NCBI GenBank assembly: GCA_029762595.1
Contig: JARVGJ010000001.1
Location: 62,001-126,000, forward strand
Origin: Methanolobus sp.
GTDB lineage: Archaea > Halobacteriota > Methanosarcinia > Methanosarcinales > Methanosarcinaceae
Direction of reading: 5' to 3'
DNA length: 64,000 nucleotides
Shown here: in pieces, positions 35,025 to 36,944 of the stretch
Position numbering within the stretch: the first letter of the stretch is position 1
How the letters are laid out: each line of letters begins with the position of its first letter
The notes under the pieces: model-generated
What the model was told of the DNA's origin: nothing
Databases searched by the model: none
The model's input: the letters and a program-made list of their open reading frames with translations, nothing else
Position numbers and translations under genes: made by a program

Positions 35025-35981
35025 ATGTTCAGATTTGACAAGAAACAAGAAGTATTCGAGGTCGGCGGAGTTAAGTTCGGTGGCCAGCCTGGTGAATACC
35101 CAACCGTACTTGTGGGAACAATGTTCTATAACAGACACAAGATAGTGACTGACGAGGACAAGGGAATTTTCGACAAGGAAGCAGCAGATAAGCTCTGGCA
35201 AAGTATTGTAGATATGGGAGAAGTAACAGGTAACCCATATGTGAACCAGATAGTAGGTGAAACACCTGAAGCTATCAAGAAGTACATTGACTGGTTCATT
35301 GAACTTGATGACAAGACACCTTTTTTAATCGACTCATCAGCAGGAGATGTACGTGCAGCTGCTGCAGAATACGTCACTGAGATAGGTGTCGCGGACAGGG
35401 CCATCTACAACTCCATAAACGCAAGTGTCCATGCAGAGGAAATAGAGGCCATCAGAGACAGTGACATTGACTGTTCAATTGTCCTTGCTTTCAACGCAAC
35501 CGACCCTAGCGTAAAAGGAAAACTGGAGATCCTTGAGAGTGGCGGTACAGGACAGGATAAAGGTATGCTTGAGATCGCAAAGGAATGTGGGATCACAAAA
35601 CCACTGATCGATGTAGCTGCAACCCCGCTAGGTGCCGGATCAGGCGCATCCATGAGAGCGGTTCTCGCAATCAAGGGACACCTTGGACTTCCTGTTGGTG
35701 GTGGATATCACAACATGGCATCTGCATGGGACTGGATGAAAACATATAAGAAGCAGTTCGAGACAAAAGAAGAAAGGCAGGCAATCTACATGCCAGCTGA
35801 TATCGGAACAAACCTTGTACCACAGGTACTCGGTTCCAACTTCCAGCTCTTTGGACCTATCGAGAATACAGACAAAATATTCCCTGCAACAGCAATGGTA
35901 GACATCATGCTGGCAGAGACTGCAAAAGAACTTGGTATTGAGGTCAAAGACCCCAACCATCCAATCAACAAGCTGGTTTAA
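35025..35981 (+). CDS. mtrH: Tetrahydromethanopterin S-methyltransferase subunit H
   Basis: The 318-residue soluble TIM-barrel methyltransferase has the pterin-binding features KFGGQPGEYPTVLVGTMFYN, FLIDSSAGDVRAAAAEYV and LPVGGGYHNMASAWDWMKT. It catalyses methyl transfer from methyl-H4SPT to the corrinoid of MtrA. It is the last gene of the operon and its TAA lies in the loop of the terminator hairpin. Confidence 0.97.
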   Translation: MFRFDKKQEVFEVGGVKFGGQPGEYPTVLVGTMFYNRHKIVTDEDKGIFDKEAADKLWQSIVDMGEVTGNPYVNQIVGETPEAIKKYIDWFIELDDKTPFLIDSSAGDVRAAAAEYVTEIGVADRAIYNSINASVHAEEIEAIRDSDIDCSIVLAFNATDPSVKGKLEILESGGTGQDKGMLEIAKECGITKPLIDVAATPLGAGSGASMRAVLAIKGHLGLPVGGGYHNMASAWDWMKTYKKQFETKEERQAIYMPADIGTNLVPQVLGSNFQLFGPIENTDKIFPATAMVDIMLAETAKELGIEVKDPNHPINKLV

Positions 35982-36006
35982 ACAAACCAGCTTTCTTTTT
36001 TTATTT
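35970..36006 (+). terminator. Intrinsic-type terminator of the mtr operon
   Basis: A perfect 10-bp stem (AAGCTGGTTT at 35970-35979, AAACCAGCTT at 35984-35993) with loop AAAC is followed by a T-rich tract. The mtrH stop codon TAA (35979-35981) spans the end of the left arm and the loop, so the 5' arm is coding sequence. Confidence 0.85.
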
Positions 36007-36166
36007 ATAGCATTCTGGCAAGCAGCCAGAGGCTTGGATAAAAACCCACTTCCAAACCTTAACGTACATTAATACTGTCCATATAATGAACATTAACCTA
36101 TATACTGAATTTTACTTTTAAAAGATAGCAACTTTTAAAAAAAGCAAAATAAAAATAAAAACAATA
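36007..36166. other. AT-rich intergenic DNA between the mtr terminator and the MITE
   Basis: There is no gene in this stretch. ACTTTTAAAA occurs twice (about 36111 and 36132). These may be remnants of the promoter for the gene at 36378 that was separated from it by the MITE. Confidence 0.4.
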
Positions 36167-36343
36167 ATGTCAGGGCTCTGTAGAAATCTTTTCTTTATTA
36201 ATAAAGCACAGATGAAAAATATCTGCGTGCATCAGCGTTACCTGCTAAACGGAGGTTTAGAAGGCACTCAACTCTGTAAGAGGTGAGTGTATCTGCGGTT
36301 CACAAATTATTGATAATAGGTTTTCTACAGAGCCAATGTCAGC
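36167..36343. mobile_element. 161-bp MITE (IS6-family-like ends) with 8-bp target site duplications
   Basis: Perfect 13-bp terminal inverted repeats, GGCTCTGTAGAAA (36175-36187) and TTTCTACAGAGCC (36323-36335), bound a 161-bp element with no open frame. It is flanked by perfect 8-bp direct repeats AATGTCAG (36167-36174 and 36336-36343), a target duplication. The ends resemble IS6-family termini (GGTTCTGTTGCAAA type), and that family makes 8-bp duplications. Internal palindromes at 36194-36207, 36207-36231, 36242-36265, 36266-36290 and 36307-36318 make it highly foldable. It was probably moved by a transposase elsewhere in the genome. Confidence 0.85.
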
Positions 36344-36377
36344 AAAATTATTAAAGTAGAGAATACTATCGCCTAAC

Positions 36378-36944
36378 ATGACGGATGTAATATTGATATG
36401 GGATAATCCACTGCTTTTTGAAAAACTTTTCAGGGAGTATGATATCAAATGCCAGAGAATCATAGCCGATTCTATAGGCACCCCCTTTATACAACCATGC
36501 AAATGTGTGATCATACCTACCGGTTTTGCAAATGAGGCCTATACAAATATATTACCAGGGATTGAAAGGAATGCTAAGAGGTTAGAGAATTTTGTGCTTA
36601 AAGGTGGCAACCTTATAATATTCAGCCCGATGGTTCCCAGCTACAGATACGATTGGCTCCCAATAGAACTGGAATACACACAACAACACCAGGTCACCCA
36701 TATATCCAATGATCAGAAACATGAAGCACAATGTCTTGTGGAAGACAGCTGTTGTGAAGTTGAGTTTGACGGATATTTTTCAAAAACTGATGGAGAAGTC
36801 GTCTTTAAAAGTAAGGAAGGAAATCCCCTCATGGTAGTAAAAGAGATAGGTGAAGGAAGGATAATTGCAACAACCATCCATGAATTTCCTTCAGGAGAAT
36901 TCCTTAAATGGATAACAGGGAATGCAAAAAAAAGCAGGTTATAA
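36378..36944 (+). CDS. Hypothetical protein with class I glutamine amidotransferase-like (ThuA-like) fold
   Basis: The 188 residues resemble a small alpha/beta protein: VILIWDNPLLFEKLFREYDI, CVIIPTGFANEAYTNILPGI and NFVLKGGNLIIFSPMVPS recall the GATase1-like/BPL-N fold, in which a subdomain looks for a strand ending in G-G-x-L-I. A catalytic Cys-His-Glu triad is not obvious. No signal peptide is seen. The MITE ends 34 bases before its ATG, with TATA-like AAATTATTAAAG between (36346-36357). Function is unknown. Confidence 0.55.
   Translation: MTDVILIWDNPLLFEKLFREYDIKCQRIIADSIGTPFIQPCKCVIIPTGFANEAYTNILPGIERNAKRLENFVLKGGNLIIFSPMVPSYRYDWLPIELEYTQQHQVTHISNDQKHEAQCLVEDSCCEVEFDGYFSKTDGEVVFKSKEGNPLMVVKEIGEGRIIATTIHEFPSGEFLKWITGNAKKSRL

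Follow-up and report, generated by a model that had tools for sequence, protein, structure and literature searches.

MITEs derived from the IS5 family have been tabulated for the Methanosarcinaceae in a survey of archaeal genomes, and its entries include those of M. burtonii ISMbu10 (185 bp), M. barkeri ISMba19 (147 bp), and M. acetivorans ISMma12 (140 bp) and ISMac15 (252 bp) (PMC3852290). According to the same survey, a MITE and its partner usually share their borders only (PMC3852290). The element that we describe here, from a Methanolobus sp. genome, is like these tabulated MITEs in being short and ORF-less, in having 15-17-bp inverted repeats and an IS5-family partner, and in a similarity to that partner confined to the ends. 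In contrast, the direct repeats tabulated for the four MITEs are 0, 0, 3, and 0 bp, whereas the Methanolobus MITE has clear 8-bp duplications. One of the listed MITEs, that of ISMbu10 in particular, may be a close relative of ours. We found no report of MITEs from Methanolobus in the literature searched, which took in only a minority of subscription journals.

Measured against the IS5 family (NF033579 type), the partner is alike in its transposase family, its length of ~1 kb, its ends, and the length of its duplications, whereas the MITE has no transposase and shares only 16-17 bp with the partner at each end. Within IS5, 8-bp duplications are made by the ISH1-like subgroup, to which the partner, with duplications of this length, may belong. 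A second point of comparison is the REP/BIME-like palindromic repeats; REPs have GTAG motifs and hairpins. The MITE resembles these repeats in its conserved hairpin core, which is also found without transposon ends and, in two genomes, as tandem 52-bp units. Our reading, to which we give a probability of about 0.93 from sequence comparison, is that the element is a MITE that an IS5-family DDE transposase probably mobilises in trans, the ~1-kb element of this transposase having the same ends. As a MITE it is ordinary, a clear archaeal case with an IS5 partner, 8-bp duplications, and an intact promoter-like block downstream; more interest attaches to its hairpin core, which seems to lead an existence of its own.

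The window, by which we mean the whole 64-kb stretch of DNA analysed, is C11:62001-126000 of a host assembly of 2,429,529 bp in 58 contigs, and its features are collected in Table 1. Two genomes that carry the same genus label as the host, G009 and G012, are identical over 3 kb to the Methanolobus records of M. psychrotolerans YSF-03 and M. halotolerans SY-01 (100%), which puts the host in Methanolobus. A preliminary description of the window had placed a 161-bp element with perfect 13-bp inverted repeats and an 8-bp target duplication at 36175-36335; direct reading confirmed the repeats, the duplication, and the length, and moved the element one base to the left. The inverted-repeat arms extend imperfectly to 29 nt (76%). 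The exact 13-mer occurs at the two ends of the element and nowhere else in the window, and allowing up to 2 mismatches gives six matches, the two exact ones included, against an average of 1.56 in shuffles. The octamer AATGTCAG is found five times in the window, about as often as expected by chance (3.46), and its repetition is meaningful because it abuts both inverted-repeat ends exactly.

Table 1. Features of the element and its surroundings (window coordinates)
Feature	Coordinates	Strand	Remarks
mtrH, upstream neighbour	35025-35981	+	PF02007 468.6 bits; TIGR01114 515 bits
Target duplication, left copy, 8 bp	36166-36173		AATGTCAG
MITE, 161 bp	36174-36334	+	From sequence; 11 host copies of exactly 161 bp, one of 160 bp (C20)
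Left terminal inverted repeat	36174-36186	+	GGCTCTGTAGAAA; continues GGCTCTGTAGAAATC..; resembles the transposase-C-terminal (R) end of the IS5 element
Hairpin module C	36207-36227		CACAGATGAAAAATATCTGCG
Hairpin module B	36241-36264		CCTGCTAAACGGAGGTTTAGAAGG; one stem mismatch relative to the family's GCAGG
Hairpin module A	36265-36289		CACTCAACTCTGTAAGAGGTGAGTG; most conserved part of the core; C11:98265-98289 in contig coordinates
Right terminal inverted repeat	36322-36334	-	TTTCTACAGAGCC; inward reading GGCTCTGTAGAAAACC.., like the IS5 element's other (L) end
Target duplication, right copy, 8 bp	36335-36342		AATGTCAG
TATA-like box of downstream gene, retained	36346-36355	+	AATTATTAAA; AATAATTAAA at the same place in 9/14 relatives
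Downstream gene, 188 aa	36378-36944	+	No Pfam or NCBIfam match

The earlier statement that the element contains no ORF is nearly right, given that the single frame of 80 aa or more overlapping it is one of 85 aa on the minus strand (36257-36514); the element is thus both short and without a transposase gene. Its single-stranded fold is far better than that of shuffled sequences (z = -6.4, with none of 200 shuffles as good). A PDB search returned two weak Caskin-2 matches (E 0.007-0.008) and no transposase, Rfam had no match over 35900-36600 up to E = 1, and no tRNA genes were found in the window.

The host genome contains many copies of this element, with 62 BLAST matches to the 161-bp query. 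In the stretches examined, 25 related elements at different sites have both inverted repeats and flanks that repeat at 7-8 of 8 positions (16 at 8/8 and nine at 7/8), and these copies with differing 8-bp flanks support the initial reading of a MITE, or non-autonomous insertion. When elements were chosen blind to the duplication, by inverted repeats and module A, 33 pairings were obtained: 16 at 8/8, seven at 7/8, and ten at 5/8 or below, three of the last being second pairings of elements already counted. Flanks taken from different pairings matched on average at 2.76 of 8 positions, and among 1056 such comparisons, which include the doubled elements, 17 reached at least 7 and three reached 8. 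Some host copies have no duplication (C10:23761, C22:48690, and C57:3396). Re-joining the 25 insertion sites, with flanks of up to 1500 bp (some less; 175 bp on one side at C57:176) and with open-ended frames counted, left only four sites with frames running across, the shortest 71 aa and the longest 87 aa. The left duplication copies of the 25 elements are A/T at 159 of 200 bases, as a raw count. The 161-bp query had no match in plasmid and phage collections. One 90-bp host copy (L034, C11:2914-3003) retains both ends and has lost modules A and B; its flanks agree at 1/8.

The element lies in the intergenic region after mtrH, and its location beside the mtr operon was correctly described. A terminator-like hairpin at 35970-35993 followed by a T run ends mtrH, and the insertion therefore stands after the mtr operon and not inside it. 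Among 14 relatives from the same genus, 12 have mtrH just upstream of the ortholog of the gene at 36378, and a scan of the 400 bp before the orthologous start gave no inverted repeat at under 4 mismatches in any of the 14, 4-5 mismatches being the chance level seen in shuffles. The empty site, one of the checks first suggested, is thus found in all 14. A broader search of 29 relatives with the 161-bp element gave matches in nine, either partial or, near full length, at 75-76% (G003, G018). Among the 11 copies that measure exactly 161 bp, identity to their consensus is 93.8-98.1%, the copy in the window, at 98.1%, being at the upper end of this range; together with the perfect duplication and the absence from 14 of 14 relatives, this bears out the suggestion of a recent insertion. 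The opposite pattern, an element at the orthologous position in distant relatives with no other copies anywhere, is not what we observed.

It had also been suggested that the insertion may have replaced the promoter of the downstream gene. The element is strongly folded and ends 43 bp before the ATG at 36378 (35 bp separate the ATG from the outer repeat, close to the 34 first reported), and one could regard it as a promoter-bringing or promoter-replacing insertion that controls this gene. Against this, an A/T-rich block is kept in all 14 relatives; it closes with TTAAA 23 or 24 bp ahead of the start codon and reads AATAATTAAA at -32 in nine, AACAATTAAA in two, and AATTAAA at -29 or -30 in three. 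The window carries AATTATTAAA at -32 with the MITE immediately upstream. The spacing of the block fits that of an archaeal TATA box. Because the MITE stands immediately upstream of this box, the box has not been replaced, and we conclude from the comparison of these regions that the putative promoter of the downstream gene is not replaced by the MITE, its TATA-like box surviving as AATTATTAAA. Furthermore, copies of the element lie between genes at many other places. Control of the 36378 gene by the element is therefore unlikely, although an upstream regulatory site displaced by 169 bp could still matter.

The evidence for an IS5 partner comes from relatives and from the host itself. Paired ends flanked by 8/8 duplications occur at four of 37 related loci, spanning 999 (L114), 1004 (L100), 1054 (L098), and 1313 bp, the last with two R-type ends. 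The other three, along with L220 (1001 bp) in the closed relative G057, combine paired ends of both MITE types with 8/8 duplications. L100 and L220 have the transposase frame whole; stops interrupt it in L098, and in L114 it is shortened. In L100 it encodes 312 aa from the first ATG, with the stop codon outside the element, and scores 230.7 bits against NF033579 (IS5; cut-off 140) and 80 bits against PF01609 (cut-off 23), which places it in the IS5 family. G057 also has the same kind of ends at L225 (1001 bp, whole frame, 2/8), at L230 (1002 bp, one stop, 7/8), and at the decayed L236 and L239 (8/8). The inverted repeats of the MITE are thus matched by those of an autonomous element that is intact in relatives (L100, L220).

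In the host, eleven contig ends break off 75-121 bp into a repeat that has the 13-bp ends of the MITE; six are R ends and five L ends. The R-end peptide is like the C-terminus of an IS5 transposase, and each of the six contig ends with an R end has a match to the L100 transposase. Four pairs of R-end and L-end contig ends have identical 8-bp flanks (GTAATTCC, AAAACTAA, AGAATACT, and AAATAATG), a fifth pair (C15 and the C54 end) has a 7-bp repeat inside a MITE copy, and no partner was found for the R end at C22; because such pairs share flanks, several IS copies appear to sit unresolved in the assembly. At the fifth pair (L046, the end of C54, and L035, the start of C15), an entire IS has apparently inserted into a MITE copy, with GAAATCC as the shared flank, 7 bp rather than 8. 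Of the seven places in the host that match PF01609, C25 alone has such ends within the sequence examined, in a decayed IS at C25:2425-3328 that contains stops and has both ends. No intact IS copy was found in the host assembly, which has decayed pieces (C25, C54, C3) beside the contig ends, and for this reason we infer, rather than observe, an active transposase in the host. The MITE consensus and the host IS are identical over 17 bp at the R end and 16 bp at the L end, in the same polarity, with no evident similarity beyond. Since the similarity stops there, the MITE is not a simple internal deletion of the IS.

On the reading that we favour, trans-mobilisation by the IS5 partner, the IS5 transposase would recognise the GGCTCTGTAGAAA-type ends of the 161-bp element, whose anatomy can be read directly, and would insert it into intergenic DNA, creating the 8-bp duplication. 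At the 36378 gene, it would have landed directly upstream of the TATA-like box, leaving the box in place. The interior consists of recurrent palindromic modules, A (CACTCAACTC..GAGGTGAGTG), B (CCTGCTAAACnnnnGTTTAGCAGG), and C (CAGATGAAAAATATCTG), whose combinations give length classes of 121, 161, 181/188, and 227-231 bp. The three copies of 227-231 bp have the order A-B-C-B'-A' (A' damaged in one), the 181- and 188-bp copies have A-B-C, the 161-bp class C-B'-A', and the 121-bp class A alone; for most of its length, the 230-bp copy can fold back on itself (z = -11.2). Judging from these copies, the shorter classes probably arose by different deletions of a symmetric A-B-C-B'-A' element, and two of them, 121 and 161, would then have multiplied. 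This suggests how one palindromic element can give several length classes through the loss of modules.

In an alignment of 21 hand-picked B-A copies, five of the 17 predicted pairs vary at both positions and still pair. Module A includes AGGAGGTGA, complementary to the 3' end of 16S rRNA. We do not favour module A as a hidden ribosome-binding site, as a C-G to T-A change in 4 of the 21 copies, all from the host genome and perhaps one event, keeps the hairpin and spoils AGGAGGTGA. With up to 2 mismatches, module A is found in 12 genomes of a 60-genome sample from the family, host included, and a reversed control pattern had no matches. A covariance model of B and A at E 1e-4, run with strict filters and the best 13 scored candidates per genome, detected the core in at least 10 of 392 genomes of the phylum, host included, all within two families that belong to one order. 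The g13 genomes with module A, which may lie outside that sample, are not among these 10. We did not find the core sequence in the literature covered by our search, and viral contigs had no exact match to a 30-mer covering module A.

In several genomes the core is accompanied by IS5 ends. Of 13 core places examined in G057, which has at least that many, five carry IS5 end pairs flanked by 8/8 duplications, another four carry weaker pairs (6-7 of 8), and the remaining four are one-ended, in a pairing that took the duplication into account; under duplication-blind choice, one of the weaker pairs (L214, 4 mismatches in each end) is lost. Other genera contribute L217 (g17), with paired ends and 8/8, L152 (g17), with one end, and L218 and L201 (g12), with paired ends at 0-2 mismatches and flanks at 4/8 and 3/8; in the genus of the host, L066 has 7/8 and L065 has paired ends with 3/8. 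Within the host genome, 22 of 36 A modules lie in paired-repeat elements with duplications and 14 do not, some of the 14 being cut by contig ends, one-ended, or bounded by both ends without a duplication.

Elsewhere the core seems to stand free. At 17 loci from g13, g21, and g22 the ends are at chance level, with at least 5 mismatches on the left in all 17 and on the right in 15 (L150 has 3 and L162 has 4), where shuffled 220-bp segments give 4-6 in 794 of 820 cases; for g13, the loci examined are 14 of its 62 A-module places, some with flanks cut by contig ends. Two loci from G009, in the same genus as the host, and one from f2 (L067) are at chance level on at least one side. Two g13 genomes have the 52-bp B-A unit in tandem, three and four times, in like surroundings (L170:394-549 in G078 and L171:406-612 in G056, apparently the same locus). 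In another g13 genome, G032, the core at L167:1453-1628 lies between other inverted repeats (24 nt, 75% complementary), possibly as a MITE of another family.

Because free copies in other Methanosarcinales genera have chance-level ends, the core seems able to exist without IS5 ends, and the MITE may be chimeric, with IS5 ends joined to a hairpin repeat that is dispersed separately. The fuller version of this idea is a tentative one that we hold at somewhat less than even odds: the core, module A (CACTCAACTCCGTAGGAGGTGAGTG) with the covarying hairpin B, would be a separate dispersed element of the Methanosarcinales with its own route of spreading in some genera, and in others would have come to lie between IS5 ends, the IS5 transposase then shipping a conserved, structured passenger. 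If this is true, the conservation of A across genera while the filler beside the IS ends differs would mean that the core is maintained for its structure. An independent core would also mean that a structured repeat which a transposon has carried is present in Methanosarcinales genomes, and how it spreads would become testable.

The GTAG motifs and hairpins of the core recall REPs and some copies lack IS5 ends, which would also suit a REP-type repeat moved by a Y1 (RAYT-like) transposase, with the IS5 ends incidental. However, in contrast to REP/BIME-like repeats, no linked Y1 transposase was found: none of 20 Y1_Tnp loci in nine genomes (from 23 matches listed) contains the core within the 1.6-3.4 kb covered, about 1.5 kb on each side of the gene. 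G057, moreover, has core copies but no Y1_Tnp match, and the duplications in the host sit exactly at the IS5 ends, leaving us to regard such an origin as very unlikely.

The preliminary description had advised a search for an IS with the same ends, which is present in relatives with 8-bp duplications, and had likened the ends to IS6 termini; they belong to an IS5-family transposon. The IS6 family also makes 8-bp duplications and its ends resemble GGTTCTGT, yet an IS6-family MITE has a negligible chance of being correct, as PF13610 (IS240/IS6-type transposase) has 0 matches in the host, though the same search matches 5 of 14 control genomes, and there are IS5 elements that have these ends together with 8-bp duplications. 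Other candidates for the partner within the host were also set aside. The six PF01609 places other than C25 have no such end, at up to 2 mismatches, in the 1.9-3.9 kb examined. A 741-bp inverted-repeat pair at C54:106049-106789 has no transposase and flanks at 2/8, and was rejected as a parent IS. This pair (L031:1050-1790) has IS5-like ends of the right polarity (GGCTCTGTTGAAATCC / GGCTCTGCAGAAAACC) and encloses an ORF for a HicB-like antitoxin (PF15919, 47.4 bits).
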